In this document: in pieces, positions 503 through 56,346 of the stretch | Layout: every line of letters starts with the position of its first letter | Position numbering within the stretch: the stretch's first letter is position 1 | IMG/VR virus record: IMGVR_UViG_3300034082_001676 | Span: 1-64,000 of that record | Origin: a virus | DNA: 64,000 nt | Reading direction: 5' to 3' (one strand) | The notes under the pieces: generated by a model | Database searches by the model: none | Told to the model about the DNA's origin: nothing | The model's input: the letters and a program-made list of their open reading frames with translations, nothing else | Position numbers and translations under genes: made by a program

Positions 503-2386
503 CTATGGTCCCGTGCCTTGTGTTACTGAAACACTACATCCAGATAATGTAGCACACTGTTGTGTAATATTAATGTTTTGTGCTGTGGTGCCTTGTTGTA
601 TTAGATTAACTGTGCTAGAGCCACCAGCATTGGTCAAGTTGATAGTGGCTTTGTGACTGCCTGCGTCCTTTTGACTGGCAGTAACATTGTGCCCGTTGCC
701 TGTTAGGCTTAGATCAAAGTAACTGCCTGATCCTTGTTGTGTAACATCAAATACATTAGTATTACCGTTGACAACGCCAAAGAATGTTTTCTCACCGTTG
801 CCCATTTGCTTCAGTGTTCCTTGATTGCTATTACCAGTGACATCAACATAGGCAAAGTGCCCACTTGCAGTTCCGCCGTCATTGCTTTGTTTTAGACTCA
901 ACGTGTTTGTGCTGCCGTTGATATTTAGACCCATATAGTGTCCACCACTCTCTTGTCCGTCTTGTAAGCCAGTTGTAGGATTACGTGCTTGCCATAAGGT
1001 AATGTTATTTGTGTTGCCTGTGACGCTGAATTCAAACAAGTTCTTACCCAGGGTATCACCTTGTTTGATGTTTAAGGTATTGTTGTCACCGTCTATGACA
1101 GCGTAGTCAGTGCCACCTAGGCCTGAGATCTTATTATAGTTGCCTGTTTGTTCAATGGTTATTGCATTACCGCTACTGCCAATCTTTTGATCAAGATATA
1201 AACTGTTGCCCAATGTAATGTTACTAACACGACTCTTAGCAGAATTCTTCTGCGCTGTTTGATTTACAGTTATGTCGCTAGTAGAAGGCCAAGTAGGAGC
1301 ACAGTCGGCGCAAACGCTGCCTGCTTGACCTGGATTAGCAGGAGTTCCGCCTGAACCAGTATCAGTACTAGTAACGCCATCATTTAAATCATAGTAGTAG
1401 GTAACTTCAGCAATTTGCATACTGTCGCAGTTTAACCCACAGAATTCCCCTGCTTTAGTTGTTGGAAACAATATGAAGTAGTAGATATAGGCAGTAGTAT
1501 TGCCTGTCGCTATTTCGGGACTAGTCCAAAATCTCGACTCGCTTAAACTTAAACTATCTTGTTTAATCAGTGTCCAGTTGGCACCGTTATTACTACCATA
1601 CAGTTTATAGCTAGTAGGATCACGGCCACTAAAATCATTAGCAGTTGTAATAGTAAATTTCTGAACCACTCGACCTTGACTTAGTTTGACAGTTACACCT
1701 GCATTCTTTTTGTCAAAATTTAGATATTTGGTATTAACATTGCCGTCAAAGGCCTGTGTTGCACCTTCTCCAAACGGACTGTTATTGCTAGTGGGAAATA
1801 TAGTGCTGATAACCACAGGTGTGCTATTAGTTCTAATCAATTTCCAGTCAGCCGGGGCACTACTCGGTGTAGTTGTAGCAGTTTGTCCTGCGGTCAACGG
1901 TACAGTAGAATAGTTAGCGTTGGCATAAGTGTTGGCCTGTGCTACTGTGGGGTTAAGTGTGCCAGTCCATGAAACACCGTTAGTGTTATTCATACCACTT
2001 GATCCACTGAATAACTGTCCTGTGTTATTGTCACTGCCCACAAAGAAGAAATAGTCAGGACCCATGTTGACAATCTTACCGGTGCCAATAGTACCTGCTA
2101 GTGTGCCATTGCTATTGTAAACTTTACCTTCGTAAGGGTAACTACCATTACCAGTTGCTGCAAATTGAACATATTGTCCTGCTTGCCAACTCCAGGTTCC
2201 GTTAAACCAAGGAATCTTATACATAGTACCCGGTTGTTTACTGTAGATTTGGCAGGTAGTAGTATTGAGACAGGCATTGACATTCCACTGACTGTCGGCA
2301 ATTTGGCTTTGTCCAAACTTGATATCAGTTAGGTCAGCAAATGCATTAGAGCATACGAACAGTAAAGCTAATAATATCTTTTTCAT
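503..2386 (-). CDS. Large secreted curlin-repeat protein with a discoidin-like domain
   Basis: 627 residues with a clear signal peptide (MKKILLALLFVCSNAFA). The middle (about 180-330) looks like an F5/8 type C (discoidin) fold: FDGNVNTKYLNF, then a SYKLYGSNNGANW-type strand, which usually binds glycans. The C-terminal third (about 380-620) carries degenerate curlin repeats of the N-x5-Q type (GNTNNITLWQ, STNTLSLKQ, GNSNQGTLKQ, NTNVFDVTQQ). This suggests an amyloid-forming adhesin exported through the CsgG pore encoded upstream. It overlaps the FecR gene by ATGA. It is far longer than typical CsgA or CsgB (about 150 residues). It could be a secreted fibre or a virion adhesin; the signal peptide favours secretion. 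Confidence 0.75.
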   Translation of the reverse strand: MKKILLALLFVCSNAFADLTDIKFGQSQIADSQWNVNACLNTTTCQIYSKQPGTMYKIPWFNGTWSWQAGQYVQFAATGNGSYPYEGKVYNSNGTLAGTIGTGKIVNMGPDYFFFVGSDNNTGQLFSGSSGMNNTNGVSWTGTLNPTVAQANTYANANYSTVPLTAGQTATTTPSSAPADWKLIRTNSTPVVISTIFPTSNNSPFGEGATQAFDGNVNTKYLNFDKKNAGVTVKLSQGRVVQKFTITTANDFSGRDPTSYKLYGSNNGANWTLIKQDSLSLSESRFWTSPEIATGNTTAYIYYFILFPTTKAGEFCGLNCDSMQIAEVTYYYDLNDGVTSTDTGSGGTPANPGQAGSVCADCAPTWPSTSDITVNQTAQKNSAKSRVSNITLGNSLYLDQKIGSSGNAITIEQTGNYNKISGLGGTDYAVIDGDNNTLNIKQGDTLGKNLFEFSVTGNTNNITLWQARNPTTGLQDGQESGGHYMGLNINGSTNTLSLKQSNDGGTASGHFAYVDVTGNSNQGTLKQMGNGEKTFFGVVNGNTNVFDVTQQGSGSYFDLSLTGNGHNVTASQKDAGSHKATINLTNAGGSSTVNLIQQGTTAQNINITQQCATLSGCSVSVTQGTGP

Positions 2387-3561
2387 CTAAAGTTCTGATT
2401 GATAACAATCTGTCCCACGGCTTTACCACTGCTGAAGTTCCAACTGTTGGTCTGCATGTCCTGTGTAACAATCACCTGCACTTTGGTATCTAAAGGCATA
2501 ACAACATTAGCATAGTTGCGACTGTTAGGGCTTAGGCTTTCAAACATCCAACCTATTTGTTGTGTTTCGCTTTTATCTTTAAACAATTTCTTAACGTAGG
2601 GATTTTCAGTTTCGCTTACTGCGGCCACTTCAGTGACTAAGGCATCTTTGTTAGCGGCAGTATCTAATCCTACCTTAGTAGCAGTGTCTAAATTCTCATC
2701 GCCTTCATTGGCACTACGTCCTTGCTTATAAGACTTGTTGCTTCCACCTTTTTCACCTTTACTAGCCACTTGTTGTTTTTCGCCATCTTTAGCATCATCT
2801 TTGTCATCTTTGTCTTTGTCGTCTTTTTTGCCGTCTTTCTTCGCATCGCCTGTCTTTTCAGCAGCAGCACGAGCAGCAGCGATCACGCTGACTCCAGTAG
2901 TAGTTCTTGGAGGATTAACCATTAGGTTGTTGCCAATGGCCATGCCGTTGAGAGCAACAATAACAGCAGGACTAGGAATACCATTTAATGTTTCAACTAA
3001 GGTAGCTTGATAAGGACGATTAAGTTTAACTATGCCTGCCGGTGTCTCTACATCAATAGCGCCACTGCCGCAGGTAAGTCCTTTTAAGTTTACGTTTTGT
3101 TCTATTTCACAGGTTGGCATCAACATGATCATACTAGCGCCTGTTTCACTAACAGCCATGACAAAGTCTGTGCCACGAACAGCAATGGCCGCAGTAGGTG
3201 TGTTGATTTTTACATTCTTGGGGTCTTTGGCAATACTGCCTGATACATAGCGCACAGTACCTGCGGCAGCTTTAAGTCCTAGTTTTCCGGCACCGCTTTT
3301 AGGATCATATACAAAATCGTCAATAATAAGGCTACTCGACTCAGTAACAGTAACGTTCGTATCGTCTTTAAAAACGATCTTGACTTTTCCATTCTTAGTT
3401 TCAATCTTGTCATTGGTTTTGATTTCTGTGCCTTTGACAATTTGAATTGTATCTTTACCACGCTTGATAATAGCAGTACCGGACGATTCAGTAACCGATC
3501 CGATATCTGCCCATGCCGACACGGCTGTGATCAAGCCTATGATAAGAGCAGCAACTCTCAT
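2383..3561 (-). CDS. Secreted FecR-domain protein
   Basis: 392 residues with an N-terminal signal peptide ending near AWA. Residues about 18-150 match a FecR domain: alternating strands with GTEIKTNDKIET, then the hallmark TPTAAIAVRGTDF. A low-complexity Lys/Asp stretch (about 235-265) links to an unrelated C-terminal domain. In bacteria, periplasmic FecR domains occur in sigma regulators but also beside secreted fibre genes. There is no transmembrane helix, so signalling through an anti-sigma anchor is unlikely. It lies between two curlin-repeat genes, 9 bases downstream of the first and overlapping the second, so I infer a role in fibre assembly or anchoring. Confidence 0.8.
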   Translation of the reverse strand: MRVAALIIGLITAVSAWADIGSVTESSGTAIIKRGKDTIQIVKGTEIKTNDKIETKNGKVKIVFKDDTNVTVTESSSLIIDDFVYDPKSGAGKLGLKAAAGTVRYVSGSIAKDPKNVKINTPTAAIAVRGTDFVMAVSETGASMIMLMPTCEIEQNVNLKGLTCGSGAIDVETPAGIVKLNRPYQATLVETLNGIPSPAVIVALNGMAIGNNLMVNPPRTTTGVSVIAAARAAAEKTGDAKKDGKKDDKDKDDKDDAKDGEKQQVASKGEKGGSNKSYKQGRSANEGDENLDTATKVGLDTAANKDALVTEVAAVSETENPYVKKLFKDKSETQQIGWMFESLSPNSRNYANVVMPLDTKVQVIVTQDMQTNSWNFSSGKAVGQIVINQNFR

Positions 3562-4387: not shown

Positions 4388-5326
4388 TTACTTCCAGAAC
4401 TGGATTCGTGTCCAGATACTCTTCTCTTTGCTTCCTTCAACACTTTTTCCGCTATCGGACTGCTGTGGTGAGGATGCAGTTTTGGCTGCGTCTTTGGTCT
4501 TGGTTTGTGCTTGAACCAACTCATTGGACTTCTCCTTGAATTGCCACAGGCCACCACGCTCTCCCTTTTTAATCAACTCAATAACCGCTGTTTCGATTGC
4601 TGAACGTAGGGCATAGTTACCTGGCTCGTTAAATGTTTGGCTTGAATCAAATTCAAATGCCTGTGTTGCTTGGTTGAAAAACTTCAACGCAGTGGCACCG
4701 TCGGCGGTGCTGAGCAAGTTCTTTTCCACTGTAACAGTGGTTAGTACTTCTCCAGTTTGAACACTGACCAAACGTAGGCTGATCACAACCACGTCTTGAG
4801 TATAGGCGGTAGATGTTCCAATACCTAACCAACGAGCACCTGTGCCGCCTGTTAGTGTATTGCTGTTATAATCAATAATGCCACCTTCTAGAATAACACC
4901 AGCCATTTGCAATGGTGGTAACGGTTTGGCATTAGCGCCTTCGTAGATCTCACGTGTCTGTTTGATCATCTGACGCTCTTTTAACAAGTTGTCCAAGCCA
5001 ACACGCTCAACAACTGTGAACCATTGACGATTACCAACTTCTTGTAAACTCTTCATTAGGTATGCTTCAGCACCCTGGGTGACTGCTGTTGAAAACAAGC
5101 TGAGTGTTGAACTTGGCTTTCGCTGTCCTGTTAGGTCTTTGAAACCATACACTGCCACTGTCACTGCCGGACCTGCTGGTGCAGGAACATTGGCAAAACT
5201 CTTGTTGATTGTGTCTGTAACTGTAGCTTCTTCTTTGATTTGTGTACTGCCCCATGGACGTACGGTTGAACATCCAGCTAGGGCTACTACGGCTAATGTG
5301 ATTAAGGATAATTTAATTGCTTTCAT
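4388..5326 (-). CDS. csgG: CsgG curli secretion pore lipoprotein
   Basis: 312 residues. N-terminal lipobox LAGC with the acylated Cys at 19. The CsgG family pattern is clear: VAVYGFKDLTGQRKP, TAVTQGAEAYLMKSL, WFTVVERVGLDNLLKER, GARWLGIG, RLVSVQTGEVL, and a C-terminal RGLWQF. In E. coli, nine copies form an outer-membrane channel whose eyelet uses Tyr51, Asn55 and Phe56. Here the eyelet segment reads SSTLSLF, so Phe is kept but Tyr and Asn are replaced. A Lys/Ser-rich tail of about 40 residues follows the core. It lies 10 bases from csgF. CsgG in T4-like pelagiphages has been reported (from memory). Confidence 0.95.
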   Translation of the reverse strand: MKAIKLSLITLAVVALAGCSTVRPWGSTQIKEEATVTDTINKSFANVPAPAGPAVTVAVYGFKDLTGQRKPSSTLSLFSTAVTQGAEAYLMKSLQEVGNRQWFTVVERVGLDNLLKERQMIKQTREIYEGANAKPLPPLQMAGVILEGGIIDYNSNTLTGGTGARWLGIGTSTAYTQDVVVISLRLVSVQTGEVLTTVTVEKNLLSTADGATALKFFNQATQAFEFDSSQTFNEPGNYALRSAIETAVIELIKKGERGGLWQFKEKSNELVQAQTKTKDAAKTASSPQQSDSGKSVEGSKEKSIWTRIQFWK

Positions 5327-21420: not shown

Positions 21421-21454
21421 TACAAAACAAAAAGAAAACCCGCCGAAGCGGGTT
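21421..21454 (-). terminator. Terminator of the tmRNA gene
   Basis: AACCCGC and GCGGGTT arms with a CGAA/TTCG loop (21437-21454), followed on the minus strand by TTTTCTTTTTG. Confidence 0.88.
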
Positions 21455-21459
21455 CCGAG

Positions 21460-21813
21460 TTTCTGTTACGAGGTATGTCTTACCCTAAGCTGAGTTTAGG
21501 CAGCTAATGCGAACTTTGAGTCGTTTGCGGTTACTTTTTTGTGTCTTCGACCGGGAGACCCCAATCCTAACGGCTTCTACATTGCCGAGCTGTCCACTCT
21601 GTTACTCTTTGCCCAATCGATCCTGTGTCAGGCCCATCAGAAAAACACTTATGTCTTGTTAAACCTTTACCTGGTGCCCAACTAAATCTATTAAAACAAC
21701 TTGGGCACAATGCGGTGTACTTCATAAATATCCTTTTGGTGGACCTGGCGGGCACTGCCCCCGCGTCTTGAACTTATTTCTCATCGCTTCATACAGCAAT
21801 AACTTATATTTAA
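21460..21813 (-). ncRNA. ssrA: Circularly permuted two-piece tmRNA
   Basis: Acceptor piece first: its 3' end is GCGGG-GGCAGTG-CCCGC then CAGGTCC, A, CCA (ends 21737). An intervening loop of about 100 bases with an 8-bp hairpin (21674-21708) follows. The coding piece begins GGGCCTG at 21635, which pairs with CAGGTCC; the third pair is G-U, the alanyl-tRNA synthetase identity element. The tag frame (21528-21496) encodes ANDSKFALAA and TAA, preceded by AAAAAAG as in E. coli (ANDENYALAA). tmRNA frees stalled ribosomes and tags proteins for ClpXP/ClpAP. The 5' limit of the acceptor piece and the exact 3' limit of the coding piece are estimates. Permutation is typical of Alphaproteobacteria. Confidence 0.93.
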
Positions 21814-22122
21814 CTACATTTTAACAGTTAAGTCAATGTCTTCTTGTTGCTTTTGGACTTCTTTCATAGGACGAATAGGTTCTAACCAGGAATCTGGAAT
21901 GTAGGCCTTTGGAGTATCTCCGTACATATTACTCAATCCAAATTCTGTGGCTATCCACCAAAAGTGATCTGTAATAGCAGCCTTGCAGGCAATTCCCTTA
22001 AACTGAAATTCCTCACCTTGCGTAAAATGTCCCACATACTCATCCACCAACACAGTTTTGCCTATGTTGGTAGGCCGTATGCTCATGATAATTTTGGCAA
22101 GATCGCCTTGTTCACATTTCAT
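21814..22122 (-). CDS. Conserved hypothetical protein upstream of the tmRNA
   Basis: 102 residues, mixed strands, Trp-rich C-terminal half (DHFWWIATEF, DSWLEPIRP). No motif recognised. Its stop lies at the estimated 5' limit of the tmRNA precursor, so the tmRNA may be cut from this gene's transcript. It overlaps the next upstream gene by 11 bases. Confidence 0.65.
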   Translation of the reverse strand: MKCEQGDLAKIIMSIRPTNIGKTVLVDEYVGHFTQGEEFQFKGIACKAAITDHFWWIATEFGLSNMYGDTPKAYIPDSWLEPIRPMKEVQKQQEDIDLTVKM

Positions 22123-38356: not shown

Positions 38357-39061
38357 CTATGTGCGTAACTTGGCCAGTCTTAAAAATTTAAATAGACTAA
38401 ACCACATCCAACCTATGTCAAACTCAAACCAACGACGACTCAGCTTAGGATTAGCAGGATCTAAGTGATGATTGTTGTGTAGTTCTTCACCGCCAATTAG
38501 TATGCCCCAAGGCACTATATTACGGCTGTGGTCTTTGGTTTCGCCATTGCGATAGCCCCACCAGTGTCCGATGCCGTTGATAAATCCAGCGGCCCAGAAC
38601 GGAATCCATAACATTTGTACACCCCACACCATAAACCCCCAAAGCCCAAATAACAATAAGTCTATGACTAGCATTAAGAGAATGCCTAGTTTGTGATGTG
38701 GGGTATACAACTTGCGTTCAATCCAGTCTTTGGGAGTGCCCATTCCGTATTTCATGATCATGTCAGCATCTTTGCCAGCACGATTATAAAACTTGACTCC
38801 ACCAAATACCAATGGCCAAATACCAAATACGTGTGGACTATGTGGATCACCTTCTACATCAGTATTTTGATGATGTTTACGGTGAATTGCTACCCATTGC
38901 TTAGTAGTCATGCCTGTGGTCATCCACAACCAAAAACGCATAAAATGGCTCAGGATTGGGTGAAATTCAATTCCTCTATGTGCTTGGTTTCTGTGTAGAT
39001 ATAGTGTGACACAGACTATTGTGATGTGCGTCATTACTAGGGTTGCGATTATTATAGTCAT
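38357..39061 (-). CDS. Membrane fatty-acid desaturase
   Basis: 234 residues. Three His boxes: HRNQAHR, HRKHH and HNNHH, with four hydrophobic segments; the pattern fits acyl-CoA/acyl-lipid delta-9 desaturases. It would insert a double bond into host membrane lipids using a di-iron centre. It is shorter than bacterial versions because the N-terminus before the first box is short. Desaturases are known auxiliary genes in marine phages. Confidence 0.92.
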   Translation of the reverse strand: MTIIIATLVMTHITIVCVTLYLHRNQAHRGIEFHPILSHFMRFWLWMTTGMTTKQWVAIHRKHHQNTDVEGDPHSPHVFGIWPLVFGGVKFYNRAGKDADMIMKYGMGTPKDWIERKLYTPHHKLGILLMLVIDLLLFGLWGFMVWGVQMLWIPFWAAGFINGIGHWWGYRNGETKDHSRNIVPWGILIGGEELHNNHHLDPANPKLSRRWFEFDIGWMWFSLFKFLRLAKLRT

Positions 39062-39110: not shown

Positions 39111-39710
39111 ATGAAAAATAAACTTATACTCACAGACGCAGATGGAGTTTTGCTAGATTGGGAATGGGCATTCTCAGTTTGGATGCAAGAACGCGGTTAC
39201 ACTCTAACAGCAGACAACAAGAAAAGCTATTATCTGCATGATCACTACAATGAGCTAGAGGAACGGGATTCAAAGAAAGTTGTTAAAACTTTCAACGAGT
39301 CAGCAGCCATTGGCTTTCTTCCTGCTCTACGTGATTCAGCTCACTATGTTAAAAGACTGCACGAAGAACACGGTTATGAATTCCGGGTGATCACAAGTCT
39401 AAGTCTAGACAAGAACGCAGGCAAACTGCGTGAAATGAATCTTCGTAAACTGTTTGGCAATGCCATTGAAAGTGTTATTTGCCTGGACACAGGTGCAGAC
39501 AAAGATTCAGCATTGGCTCCTTACAAGGCGAGTGGCATGTGGTGGATTGAAGACAAGCCTGCCAATGCCGATGTTGGCCACAGTCTAGGACTGCGCTCTA
39601 TCCTTATTGAACACGGGCACAATATGCATCATGAATGTTCATACCCTGTGGTCAAGAACTGGCGCGAACTCTACGAACTAGTTTTAACTCCAGTATCTGG
39701 TGCTGTCTAA
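39111..39710 (+). CDS. HAD-family phosphatase
   Basis: 199 residues. HAD motif I LTDADGVLLDWE, motif II VITSLS, motif IV WWIEDKPANAD. A cap region lies between I and II. It may be a 5'-nucleotidase or a 3'-phosphatase; no kinase domain is present. The promoter and leaderless start suggest early expression. The 3' end overlaps the convergent GT2 gene by 27 bases. Confidence 0.82.
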   Translation: MKNKLILTDADGVLLDWEWAFSVWMQERGYTLTADNKKSYYLHDHYNELEERDSKKVVKTFNESAAIGFLPALRDSAHYVKRLHEEHGYEFRVITSLSLDKNAGKLREMNLRKLFGNAIESVICLDTGADKDSALAPYKASGMWWIEDKPANADVGHSLGLRSILIEHGHNMHHECSYPVVKNWRELYELVLTPVSGAV

Positions 39711-40400
39711 ACTGTCCCAATAGGCTTTGTTGTTGCGATTGACAAAGTTTTTGACTAGATACTTGGCCATGCCCATATAGCCCATCTTCTTGAATCTACG
39801 ACTGTCCTGACCAAAGTGATGTCGTATGATTCTAAACTTCTTAGGGCTGTACTTACGGCTCAAGAAGAAGTCTTCTGATGTTGCAAACTGCTCCGGAAAG
39901 CCGCCGTACTGTTCAAAGCGATCCCTGCGTGTTAGCATAAAAGCACCAACAGCAAAAGGACTAACATATTTTAATACATGATTGATTAGGTTAAATGCTG
40001 TAAACCCAATCTTTGCTCGTAGGTCTCGATCATAGCATTTGATATTCAATCCTATGAGGTCTAGGTTCTTACGCTCTATCATGTCAACAGCATCTTGTAT
40101 TACATTATCTTTAAAGAATCGCACATCAGCATCAATAAACAAGATATAGGGAGTAGTGACCAGTTGTGCTCCATTGTTCTTGGCCAGCGAAACAGGCCCA
40201 CCTTCAATGATTTCTACATTTAACTTGCCCTTTGCGGCTTGAATAACTTCACGAGTATTGTCTGTAGAACAATCAGCAATGATGATTCTAGTATCACCAA
40301 TGTTTTGGCTGCGTAGAGAGTCTAGCAAATGGTGTATGTAGTTCTCCTCATTCTTGCAGGGAACCACAATGGTAATTTTATCGCTTATTGTCGTTTGCAT
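39684..40400 (-). CDS. Family 2 glycosyltransferase
   Basis: 238 residues. GT-A start TIVVPCKNEENYIHHLLDSL, DCSTDN, and the metal site FIDADVRF; a later TSEDFFLSRK. It would transfer a sugar from a nucleotide donor to a surface glycan or lipid. No membrane helix beyond a short hydrophobic patch. AAGGTGG precedes the ATG. Confidence 0.9.
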   Translation of the reverse strand: MQTTISDKITIVVPCKNEENYIHHLLDSLRSQNIGDTRIIIADCSTDNTREVIQAAKGKLNVEIIEGGPVSLAKNNGAQLVTTPYILFIDADVRFFKDNVIQDAVDMIERKNLDLIGLNIKCYDRDLRAKIGFTAFNLINHVLKYVSPFAVGAFMLTRRDRFEQYGGFPEQFATSEDFFLSRKYSPKKFRIIRHHFGQDSRRFKKMGYMGMAKYLVKNFVNRNNKAYWDSLDSTRYWS

Positions 40401-43370: not shown

Positions 43371-44339
43371 TTAGAATCCGTTAGTGGCTGAGTTGTAGAA
43401 CAGTTTACCTGTCCAAGTCGATGTTTTAGCCTGTGTACTAGATGCCCAACTAACTGTCATTGTTCCTGGGCCTGTTAGGTTACCAAACATAACACGGAAA
43501 GGATAATAGATGTTTGCGGTCATTGCAACGGTTCCGCTCACTTCTACAGGACCGTGAAGGCCGCCATTCTGTACAATAGCATTGGTATGAGTATATCCAG
43601 TGATGGCATTCGGGCCTATCCACATATAACTAGCATCGTCGGTGTTGGTGTAGAATGTATAGGTATCTGTAGTAGGTGCTAAGAAGTATCCTGTTAGCAT
43701 AATACTACTATACTCTGGTAGGCTGGATAAGTTTAAACTTGTATAGACACCTTGAGACGTTGCGGCATAGGTGTCAAAAAATGTTAGATCATCGTTAGCC
43801 GGAGTAAAATCAGTACCAAAGTAGCCATTAGCATTCGTTGTGCCGGTTACTGTGCGATGATAAACTCCAGATGTAAATGTAATAGCTGCAACGTTGATCC
43901 ACGGACGTCCTTGTAGCAATCCTCCAGTATTAGGATTATCATCTGCGTCAGTGGCATAGGTGTCCGGTAATAGAGTGATATCAAAAGTGTTGTTCACCCG
44001 ATAGTAAGGTTTAGTTGTGTCGCCAAATGCTTGCTTTTTTGCCTGAGCAATATATAATTTTCTCAGCTGCCGTTCTTGTTTACTTTCATTTTGTTGTGGA
44101 GTACATAACACAGTATCACCGTCTACCAGCCCCATTGCTGATAACTTTGTAGAACTATCACCAAAGGTAATGCTATTTTTGCTAGGATCACTTAAGAGAC
44201 TCCAGTGATAATAATCTGCTGGTAGTCCTTCGTCTGTGGCAATGGCTGTGATTAGTGTGTCAACGGTGGCAGTGGCCAATGTTATTCCGGTAACGCTACG
44301 TTTTGTTCCGGTTAGTCCCCAATAGTTTATATCGGCCAT
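43371..44339 (-). CDS. Virion adhesin with GLEYA/PA14-like domain
   Basis: 322 residues. The N-terminal 100 contain a ubiquitin-like fold by pattern (ATVDTLITAI, GLVDGDTVLCTPQQ). The C-terminal half shows the GLEYA/PA14 lectin signature: LTGYFLAPTTDTYTFYTNTDDASYMWIG and a later VMFGNLTGPGTM. It probably binds a glycan on the host. No signal peptide, so a virion component is likely. Confidence 0.75.
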   Translation of the reverse strand: MADINYWGLTGTKRSVTGITLATATVDTLITAIATDEGLPADYYHWSLLSDPSKNSITFGDSSTKLSAMGLVDGDTVLCTPQQNESKQERQLRKLYIAQAKKQAFGDTTKPYYRVNNTFDITLLPDTYATDADDNPNTGGLLQGRPWINVAAITFTSGVYHRTVTGTTNANGYFGTDFTPANDDLTFFDTYAATSQGVYTSLNLSSLPEYSSIMLTGYFLAPTTDTYTFYTNTDDASYMWIGPNAITGYTHTNAIVQNGGLHGPVEVSGTVAMTANIYYPFRVMFGNLTGPGTMTVSWASSTQAKTSTWTGKLFYNSATNGF

Positions 44340-45829: not shown

Positions 45830-46166
45830 AACGATCTTCTGCATAGTCTCCAGTACCAACTTCAAATATCACACTGTTGGCCACTAGAGATTCTACTTGA
45901 TGTGGTCCTAGCTGCCCAAAGTCAGCAGTCTGTCCTTCTTCTAGCACAGCTTCTTTTACTTCTCCGGTGGCAACATCGATAAATTTAACTTTGAACTTGC
46001 CTGCATTCACAAACCAACTCTTGGCTTTTTCTTTGTGAAACACCAAACTGGTCTTGGCCCCTGCACGTTCAAATACCAATAGTTTGCCGCAGTATTTGTC
46101 GTTGTTGGCAAACACCAATTCAAATCCCCAACCCTTGTCTATTTTACCCAATGTCTGTAAGTTCAT
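45783..46166 (-). CDS. Small cupin protein
   Basis: 127 residues. Cupin pattern like mannose-6-phosphate isomerase C-domains: [45 protein letters not shown]. Its 3' end overlaps the ALAS gene by 47 bases tail to tail. Its ATG overlaps the clpP stop. Substrate unknown. Confidence 0.82.
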
Positions 46167-46750
46167 TATCTCTCCGTTATAATTTTGTCGATGAGTCCGT
46201 AGGCCAATGCTTCATCAGCACTCATAAATTTGTCTCGTTCCATATCAGCAGTCATCTGTGCAAAAGTTTTGCCCTGGCTGTTGTGTTTGACATAGATTTC
46301 AGTCAATGTCTTTTTCATTTTAATAATCTCTTCAACTTGAATCTGCATATCTGTGGCCTGTCCGCGAGCACCGCCACTGGGTTGATGAATCATGTGTCGA
46401 GCATTGGGCAACATAAAACGTTTGCCTTTGGCTCCGGCAGTGGCCAACAATGATCCCATTGAACAGGCCTGTCCCATAACATAGGTTGATACATCGGGTT
46501 TGATAAATTGCATGGTGTCATAGATGCTCATACCCGATGTGACAACTCCACCGGGACTGTTGATAAACAGGCTGATGTCTTTGTCTGGATTTTCACTTTC
46601 TAGAAATAGTAATTGGGCTACAATAACATTGGCCATTTGATCCTCTACAGGACCATTCAGCATGATAATTCTTTCTTTGAGCAGTCGGCTGTAAATGTCG
46701 TAGGCTCGTTCGCCTTTACTAGATGATTCAATTACCATTGGTACTAACAT
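46166..46750 (-). CDS. clpP: ClpP serine protease
   Basis: 194 residues, full length. Catalytic triad Ser97 ([14 protein letters not shown]), His122 (MIHQPSGG) and Asp173 ([14 protein letters not shown]). LFINSPGG and the N-terminal axial region are intact. Needs a Clp ATPase (ClpX or ClpA) from the host. With phage tmRNA and ClpS it could redirect host proteolysis. Confidence 0.95.
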
Positions 46751-55320: not shown

Positions 55321-56346
55321 ATGAGGAAGTTAGCAACCATTAGGAAGATTGATGCACTGCGTCCTATCCCGGATGCTGATGCTATCGAATGTGCAGTCGT
55401 AGGTGGATGGACGGCTGTGGTTAAGAAGGGTGAATATGCCGCAGGTGATCTTGCTGTGTACTGCGAAATCGATTCTTGGATTCCTCACGCACTGGCACCA
55501 TTTTTGAGCAAGGGCAAGGAGCCCAGAGTGTTTGATGGTATTCAAGGCGAACGTCTGCGTACAATGAAGCTTCGAGGACAGTTGAGCCAGGGGCTGTTGT
55601 TGCCATTGTCTACATTGACTATGATAGATTCGGAACTATTTGAAGGACTCGATGTATCATTTCCACTAGGCATTGTGAAATACGAAGCCCCCATCCCAGC
55701 ACAATTGGCAGGAGAAGTCAAGGGCATGTTCCCAGGTTGGATTCAAAAGACTGACCAAGAACGTGTTCAAAACTTGAAAGAAGAATTGGACTACTGGCTT
55801 AGAGAACAACACGTTTGGGAAGTTACTGAAAAGCTGGATGGCAGCTCAATGACTGTGTATCTGCGTGATGGAGAGTTTGGTGTGTGTTCACGTAATCTTG
55901 AACTCAAGCCCAGCGAAACCAACAGCCTGTGGAAGGTTGCAGTACGCAATGATTTGGAGTTGAAGCTTCGTCGTGCCGATCGTAATCTTGCACTGCAAGG
56001 TGAGTTGATTGGAGAAGGTATCCAAGGTAATCCATACAAGCAAAAAGGACAGGAATTTTTCTTGTTTGATATCTACGACATCGATACCAGCAAGTACTTT
56101 ACTCCTGCCGAACGCAAGGCATTTGTTCAAGAACACGACATCAAACACGTGCCTGTGCTGGCATTTGGGGCTGAACTGTCAGATACCCTAGGAGTCAACA
56201 GCATTGACGGAATTCTGCGTTTTGCAGAAGGTAAATCAGTTATGGGAATGATAGGTTGTGAACGTGAAGGCGTTGTGTTTAAAAGCAAGGCCATGCAATG
56301 TTCGTTCAAGGCGATCTCTAATAAATTTTTGTTAAAAAGTGAATAA
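55321..56346 (+). CDS. RNA ligase (DraRnl / Rnl5-like)
   Basis: 341 residues. An N-terminal OB-like domain (about 1-110: RKLATIRKIDALRPIPDADA, YCEIDSWIP) precedes the nucleotidyltransferase domain with the active-site Lys in TEKLDGSSMTVY. LQGELIGEGIQGN, FLFDIYDI and EGVVFKSK are motifs III, IIIa and IV. This order fits the Rnl5 group, which seals nicked RNA or DNA-RNA. Possible role: repair of tRNA cut by host defence. Confidence 0.88.
   Translation: MRKLATIRKIDALRPIPDADAIECAVVGGWTAVVKKGEYAAGDLAVYCEIDSWIPHALAPFLSKGKEPRVFDGIQGERLRTMKLRGQLSQGLLLPLSTLTMIDSELFEGLDVSFPLGIVKYEAPIPAQLAGEVKGMFPGWIQKTDQERVQNLKEELDYWLREQHVWEVTEKLDGSSMTVYLRDGEFGVCSRNLELKPSETNSLWKVAVRNDLELKLRRADRNLALQGELIGEGIQGNPYKQKGQEFFLFDIYDIDTSKYFTPAERKAFVQEHDIKHVPVLAFGAELSDTLGVNSIDGILRFAEGKSVMGMIGCEREGVVFKSKAMQCSFKAISNKFLLKSE

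Follow-up and report, generated by a model that had tools for sequence, protein, structure and literature searches.

A putative protein-gene slot in the intervening segment of permuted phage tmRNA genes

The tmRNA locus

The window considered here is a stretch of 64,000 nt from an IMG/VR virus record of 72,577 bases, and its minus strand carries a complete gene for a permuted, two-piece tmRNA. Read along that strand, the parts follow in the order T-arm, CAGGTCC, ACCA, a 101-nt intervening segment (IVS), GGGCCTG, tag frame and terminator (Table 1), with an alanyl acceptor stem (GGGCCTG/CAGGTCC) that has the G3·U70 pair and with an encoded CCA. A scan of the window against all of Rfam gave two matches in total, both at this locus and on this strand, namely RF04321 (102.1 bits, cut-off 47, E 9e-19, model positions 1-213) and alpha_tmRNA, RF01849 (72.6 bits, cut-off 50); ARAGORN missed the gene, which the covariance models detect. 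A preliminary description of this DNA had proposed a phage-encoded permuted tmRNA with the tag ANDSKFALAA, had listed the G3-U acceptor pair, T-arm, encoded CCA, tag frame and terminator as visible, and had suggested the alpha-model search. The RF04321 match bears out the proposal, the alpha model scores above its cut-off, and all of these parts were located on the minus strand. The intervening hairpin that was also listed is only half the picture, as it does appear in the predicted fold but the same stretch is also an open reading frame, which the description lacked.

Table 1. Features of the tmRNA locus and neighbouring genes in the window
Feature	Position	Strand	Basis or remark
Permuted tmRNA gene	21496..21798	-	RF04321; alpha_tmRNA at 21451-21840
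Acceptor piece: T-arm 21764-21748; CAGGTCC, discriminator and CCA (ACCA) 21747-21737	21737..21764	-	
IVS, 101 nt, from CCA to 5' acceptor strand; putative protein-gene slot	21636..21736	-	
Acceptor 5' strand GGGCCTG, start of coding piece; G3 faces U70	21629..21635	-	
Tag frame ANDSKFALAA*	21496..21528	-	
Terminator: hairpin AACCCGC-TTCG-GCGGGTT and T-rich run	21434..21454	-	seen in sequence
AAAGGA Shine-Dalgarno and ATG, predicted 5' strand of helix extending the acceptor stem	21723..21736	-	fold; matched-end pairing in relatives
Predicted 3' strand of helix sequestering Shine-Dalgarno and ATG	21639..21653	-	predicted fold
Putative nested ORF, 52 codons, MKYTALCPSCFNRFSWAPGKGLTRHKCFSDG..., CPxC-x14-HxC	21567..21725	-	
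The 30 IVS-internal codons of the ORF, the part conserved as protein	21636..21725	-	alignment; in-frame pN/pS 0.37
FecR-domain protein	2383-3561	-	
CsgG curli-secretion protein	4388-5326	-	
DnaK-like protein, 633 aa	8622-10523	-	phrog_22485, nearly full length
Fatty-acid desaturase	38357-39061	-	
Glycosyltransferase	39684-40400	-	
GLEYA/PA14 protein	43371-44339	-	
ClpP protease	46166-46750	-	PF00574, 275.9 bits, at 46172-46717
RNA ligase	55321-56346	+	phrog_968

The tag frame, which the preliminary description had expected to be conserved in related phages, is present throughout the set examined. Among 173 distinct IVS/body combinations with enough sequence (the window included, 11 short ones excluded), a permissive script detected a tag in 171, a part of which are misframed upstream readings, and 144 of the 171 end in LAA; the two that it missed were read by eye as ANDEVYALAA and ANEENFALAA. 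An unusually long tag of 28 residues, ANADTFDFSAMSFTGNTVSGKSKVALAA, occurs in L019 and its relatives, while four loci (L048, L054, L061 and L076) have a very short IVS of 23 nt and encode ACCT, not ACCA.

Lineage and genome context

The preliminary description took the permutation to link the phage to Alphaproteobacteria. That link is unsupported, because permuted tmRNA genes are also found in Betaproteobacteria and Cyanobacteria (PMC11915505, in its accessible part), because beta_tmRNA (RF01850) scores higher on the window than the alpha model (76.8 versus 72.6 bits, the former below its own cut-off of 84), and because five of the ten relatives scanned pass the beta cut-off (L210, 127.2 bits; L171, 110.4; L120, 107.9; L215, 104.7; L255, 94.9). 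Of the other five, L133, L119 and L151 match the alpha model instead and L087 and L196 the general model only.

The genes of the window include those for ribonucleotide reductase subunits, DNA ligase, RNA ligase, a DnaK-like protein, CsgG and ClpP, the last of these being the phage ClpP to which the preliminary description had suggested that tagged proteins might be steered; it does lie on the same contig (Table 1). Another role suggested there is that a phage tmRNA may keep ribosomes free while host mRNA is broken down. CsgG is also carried by the phages Melnitz and HTVC008M, a pelagiphage. The DnaK-like protein shows 63.8-69.6% identity to its counterparts in the five top-ranking phage records, of which three carry the annotation DnaK, and the RNA ligase might in principle rejoin tRNA or tmRNA that has been cleaved. 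For the stretches of the window that were tried, no DNA similarity to named phages was found. Among related records, the T4-type major capsid protein was detected in 7 of 21, including all seven over 100 kb (one barely above cut-off), and in a second set in 11 of 19, including 9 of 13 over 100 kb, which brings the gene to 16 of the 20 tested records over 100 kb. A search of 22 phage records, a good many of them fragmentary, found no SmpB, and the phage tmRNA would therefore probably need SmpB from the host. When a 26-base pattern from the coding piece was run against a genome collection, it hit one contig, 3 kb long, in a gammaproteobacterial metagenome bin; this contig is perhaps misbinned phage. 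In one relative, a 286-kb phage record, a GOLLD RNA (L133:10928-11336) lies about 4 kb from the tmRNA.

Intervening segments with and without a nested frame

The IVS of the window opens with AAAGGATATTTATG, so placed that a Shine-Dalgarno sequence abuts the CCA and a start codon stands 11 nt in. The frame that begins there, MKYTALCPSCFNRFSWAPGKGLTRHKCFSD, covers 30 codons inside the IVS and then crosses into the tmRNA body, with 52 codons in total. The set of loci was enlarged by pattern scans of the tmRNA body and of the T-arm side, neither of which touches the IVS. Among the matches listed, this gave at least 267 sequences (the window appearing twice, as itself and as L001), 245 of which were parsed, with one false parse (L140) dropped, and at least 161 unique IVSs in 114 clusters.

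Two classes can be told apart. In the gene class, [A/T]AAGGA or a similar string stands next to the CCA, an ATG or GTG follows at offset 9-14 (19-20 nt in the Melnitz family), and the frame fills the IVS; in the other, there is no such frame, and the IVSs are mostly shorter than 100 nt and hairpin-like by eye. The frames of the gene class, referred to below as cargo, run from about 22 to 133 codons and frequently end in the UGA of ...TTTATGAT|GGG, the final codon ahead of the acceptor 5' strand. This class makes up 51 of the 161 unique IVSs, including two that hold two genes and one whose frame stops 25 nt early, and in the IVS-unbiased sample it makes up 34 of 129 unique IVSs among the matches listed, the remaining 95 being without such a frame. 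A tRNA within the IVS was considered and rejected, since the strong ARAGORN case among the matches listed (L140) arose from a tRNA cluster that had been parsed wrongly; a weak call, again by ARAGORN and among the matches listed, is left in L144.

Bacterial loci served as controls. Of 93, 78 were parsed and 76 kept after two parse errors (L361 and L270) were dropped, and their IVSs have a median of 30 nt and a maximum of 115 in this sample of alpha-model matches from one phylum. A Shine-Dalgarno-like string with a start occurs in 4 of the 76, in IVSs of 30-55 nt.

Open frames and selection on the encoded protein

The excess of open frames was assessed in clusters of at least 60 nt with a Shine-Dalgarno sequence and a start within the first 24 nt, a frame being counted as open if it ran to within 16 nt of the IVS end, and the null was drawn from 200,000 dinucleotide shuffles that retained the start. 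Of 38 such clusters, 33 are open, as against 4.67 expected and a shuffle maximum of 15; the five exceptions comprise the two two-gene IVSs (L133 and L167), the IVS that stops 25 nt early (L056) and two without a real frame (L113 and L187). Scans with leaders taken from this first set provided follow-up sets of new clusters unlike the old ones, which, being chosen by leader, are informative on the frame and not on prevalence. With the leader TCCACCATAAGGAAGTTT, 22 of 23 new clusters are open (0.56 expected). With a second leader, CTCCACCAWAAGGARATT, and among the matches listed, two of the 23 clusters have no start, and of the remaining 21, 11 are open (1.15 expected); five of the ten failures have a second frame ending at the terminal UGA, and another, L616, stops 15 nt before the end, just past the limit.

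Substitution patterns likewise single out the proposed frame, in which selection is purifying. In the 159-nt IVSs with the second leader (31 unique sequences among the matches listed, each of which ends in TGA at -1 after 29 open codons), pN/pS is 0.25 in the proposed frame versus 0.94 and 3.37 in the shifted ones; 47 of their relatives, selected by a protein motif, give 0.27 versus 1.12 and 2.71, and eight sequences of a 382-nt IVS give 0.18 versus 1.31 and 2.04. Pairwise values of pS/pN are 0.68/0.13 for L133/L167, 0.78/0.30 for L170/L196 and 0.72/0.09 for L121/L102, the very close pairs L036/L037 and L119/L211 being uninformative on selection. Insertions and deletions also keep the frame, with 6 nt between L210 and L017 and 24 nt within L405-L407. 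As a class, the nested-gene slot is in our judgement well supported by these comparisons.

Support for the 30-codon cargo of the window itself is somewhat weaker than for the class. A protein-level scan of viral contigs with the window frame yielded 95 relatives, 80 of which were kept; nine of these are identical, 17 retain the IVS-encoded part, with 62-91% identity over the matched segment, and most of the rest match solely where the tmRNA body is conserved. Within the window family (12 sequences, 30 codons), pN/pS is 0.37 in frame versus 2.76 and 0.76 shifted, and the family's own probability of being open by chance is 0.198; the pair L001 (the window)/L014, with pS 0.13 and pN 0.12, is uninformative either way. 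C7, C10, H25 and C27 are invariant in all 12 sequences, and the product seems to be a small, zinc-finger-like protein with the pattern CPxC...HKC, its predicted structure being poor (pLDDT 56). It has no match in Pfam, a best PHROG match of E 0.0062, and no free-standing homologue among 50,697 phage records.

Known families among the cargo, and their exchange

Several cargo frames encode recognizable proteins. The clearest case is L428, a record of 4335 bases in which an 84-aa thioredoxin gene with the WCGPC motif (PF00085, 75.4 bits, cut-off 23.5, E 4.1e-21) lies inside a permuted tmRNA scoring 136 bits with RF04321. The cargo of L091 has a CxxCxxCC domain (29.4 bits, cut-off 23), and that of L263 matches phrog_13558 (E 9.8e-13). 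Relatives that match over at least 80% of the L263 cargo occur in 68 phage records, most of them from cyanophages and Stenotrophomonas phages; 15 of the best 20 of these 68 matches are annotated as hypothetical proteins. Most other cargo queries found no family in PHROGs or Pfam, and the 84-aa cargo of L196 found, in a direct scan, its own record only, that of L170 being related to it by alignment. The surrounding tmRNA is intact, as RF04321 exceeds its cut-off in 25 of 26 records tested and in all nine further loci; the exception, L164, with a 382-nt IVS, shows two split RF04321 matches under the cut-off.

The contents of the slot differ between otherwise similar tmRNA genes. Of 243 locus pairs whose flanks are nearly identical (the pairs being non-independent), 70 have dissimilar IVSs, and in 54 of these 70 one member has a gene and the other none. 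Dissimilar IVSs between near-identical flanks indicate that the IVS is exchanged as a cassette. The cargo is also modular, as L167 shares its first gene with L133, and the second gene of L167 stands alone in L122. Two loci have unusual arrangements: in L174 (IVS 1177-1413) there is an apparent second CCA-like boundary, as if IVS cassettes stood in tandem, and the 376-nt IVS of L468 holds a cargo beginning VKSKSK..., as in L119 and L211, followed by about 176 nt more, which may be a second gene or the result of a cassette fusion.

Melnitz and other cultured phages

A two-piece tmRNA in phages has already been published for the methylophage Melnitz and for pelagimyophages (PMC9004378, as far as accessible). 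In the record of Melnitz, a Methylophilales phage (MZ577097), SsrA is the sole annotation at 45984-46436 (L388:2985-3437), and its 142-nt IVS contains GGAG, an ATG at offset 19 and an unannotated conserved frame, MFKWLSKTRLVVITRDYFRERNRKADAKIPKYLSGTRSVYD..., with the peptide sequence MFKWLSKTRLVVITR.... A scan seeded with this IVS protein gave 21 contigs, 18 of which retain it; of the other three, L413 carries a different frame there, and the IVSs of L414 and L415 are short and have none. Seven of eight pairs within the family have pS of 0.18-0.73 and pN of 0.04-0.20, the eighth, very close, having 0.05 and 0.01. In a single case among the 18 contigs, L408, a one-base deletion breaks the frame, so cargo can be lost. 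Since the Melnitz lineage matches the alpha model (106.7 bits), unlike most scanned relatives of the window, two or more tmRNA lineages appear, on covariance scores, to use the slot. Two further cultured phages with permuted tmRNAs have candidate frames that open from a start near the CCA, in IVSs without a clear Shine-Dalgarno sequence. In Xanthomonas phage Rb1 (L389; IVS of 107 nt) the frame starts with GTG at offset 17 and stops 9 nt short of the IVS end, and in Achromobacter phage JWDelta (L392; IVS of 207 nt) it starts with ATG at offset 12 and reaches 30 nt into the body.

A helix over the ribosome-binding site and a proposed mechanism

The two ends of gene-bearing IVSs are matched to each other. 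In 35 of them, the first 14 nt pair with their own end at a mean of -7.69 kcal/mol, versus -5.13 for mismatched ends; pairing with the own end is better in 32 of the 35, and none of 20,000 permutations was as good, some of these IVSs being related and therefore not fully independent. In the predicted fold of the window (z -2.94), a 13-bp helix that includes AAGGA and AUG is stacked on the acceptor stem. Because the ribosome-binding site would lie within a helix that extends the acceptor stem, it would be shut once that stem forms.

The reading that we prefer, and consider likely, is that of a two-piece tmRNA gene whose IVS is a nested protein gene; its architecture, the coding selection, the helix and the cassette exchange are demonstrated at the level of sequence, and from these we infer translation, timing and processing. 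The phage would transcribe a single pre-tmRNA. The ribosome-binding site would emerge ahead of its pairing partner, which would make it possible for ribosomes to translate the cargo during transcription. Once the ribosomes had gone, helix and acceptor stem would close, shutting the site, and host RNase P and 3' processing enzymes would cut out the IVS to give the two tmRNA pieces, the IVS being discarded. In bacteria, two-piece tmRNAs are known to be cut by tRNA-processing enzymes (PMC11915505, accessible part), and the same is assumed here for the phage. In the non-stop variants, as in the window and Melnitz, the frame runs into the body, and the excised IVS would therefore lack a stop and might in turn serve as a tmRNA substrate; a precedent of a kind is arfA mRNA, which has no stop codon and is repressed by trans-translation (PMC10107115, accessible part). 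A wider proposal, which we put forward tentatively and with the balance leaning slightly against it, is that large T4-type phages have turned the spacer into a protein slot in which translation and maturation would be mutually exclusive, the ribosome-binding site being one strand of the acceptor-stem extension, and in which non-stop cargo could form a self-tagging feedback loop.

Alternative explanations

The genes might be real but expressed only after processing, with the IVS, once cut out, and not the precursor serving as a mini-mRNA. Among 48 unique IVSs with a single frame, 25 stop at -1 and 8 slightly earlier, so that in this UGA-terminal class everything from Shine-Dalgarno to stop lies inside the IVS and the piece cut out would form an entire minimal mRNA; the other 15 frames, however, extend into the tmRNA body and could not be encoded by an excised IVS, and only a few nucleotides of leader precede the Shine-Dalgarno sequence. 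We regard translation from the excised piece as unlikely, if still a serious contender.

That the cargo consists of selfish passengers at a neutral site, comparable to homing-endonuclease genes in introns, would account for different cassettes in near-identical tmRNAs and for the many cargo proteins without any family match. Endonuclease-like matches were nevertheless absent from 30 cargo queries against PHROGs and from 20 against Pfam, and thioredoxin and short hydrophobic peptides resemble ordinary phage genes; a selfish origin is thus improbable.

We think it very unlikely that the IVS is kept for its RNA structure, as a processing helix or hairpin, with the protein frame a by-product. The matched ends of frame-bearing IVSs and the z of -2.94 for the window fold are what such a role would leave behind, but interior codons vary synonymously in a way that shifted frames do not, the indels of 6 and 24 nt preserve the frame, a thioredoxin domain is hardly a by-product, and helix and protein constraints may coexist at the IVS ends.

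Least credible of all is that the IVS is the non-coding spacer of an ordinary phage permuted tmRNA and that the frames are chance openings in AT-rich RNA, an idea in keeping with the 95 of 129 IVS-unbiased unique IVSs without such a frame (among the matches listed), with the short bacterial IVSs (median 30 nt, 76 parsed) and with how common short chance frames are, yet refuted for the gene class, on these sequences, by the open-frame excess in two sets, by purifying selection specific to the proposed frame and by known protein domains within the IVS.

Significance and comparison with known systems

tmRNA is near-universal, and the permuted type is the commonest of its rearranged forms; to our knowledge its IVS has hitherto been regarded as waste or spacer. 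A coding slot in the IVS of many large phages would amount to a class of small genes hidden from annotation that masks RNA genes, would mean that the precursor of a structured RNA can double as an mRNA, and would offer a testable reason why phages keep permuted tmRNAs, with Melnitz as a cultured member. In the accessible parts of the open-access literature we found no account of proteins encoded in the IVS of a permuted tmRNA gene, though an earlier mention may exist elsewhere; there is likewise none in the accessible parts of PMC4131195, PMC5746245 and PMC8541194. Permuted phage tmRNA being already known, the new element seems to be the protein-gene slot in the IVS.

With bacterial permuted tmRNAs (RF04321, RF01849, RF01850 and RF01851), the phage gene shares the gene order, G3·U70 and the ALAA end of the tag; it differs from the sampled bacterial IVSs (median 30 nt, one phylum) in that the phage IVS is a putative protein gene. 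As in Melnitz and the pelagimyophages (PMC9004378, accessible part), a permuted tmRNA is found in a T4-like phage, and CsgG and NrdAB are also present in the window; the accessible part of that paper reports no gene in the IVS, yet the 142-nt IVS holds a conserved frame. Another parallel is with the self-splicing group I introns that carry homing-endonuclease genes in the T-loop of tmRNA (PMC11915505, accessible part), for there too a protein gene is nested in a stretch removed from the tmRNA precursor. Unlike those introns, the phage cargo consists of diverse small proteins in the permutation spacer, and no intron family matched the window at the gathering threshold across all of Rfam. Contents of the IVS known from single cases are a tRNA-Ala gene and a repeat element, the accessible part of the same source (PMC11915505) mentioning no protein genes. 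Such IVSs resemble the phage ones in having extra content, and differ in that theirs is an RNA gene or a repeat and that of the phages protein genes. In SgrS/SgrT, a single transcript is both RNA and mRNA, and the functional RNA itself is translated. In the phage slot, by comparison, it would be the discarded spacer, and not the functional RNA, that is translated.
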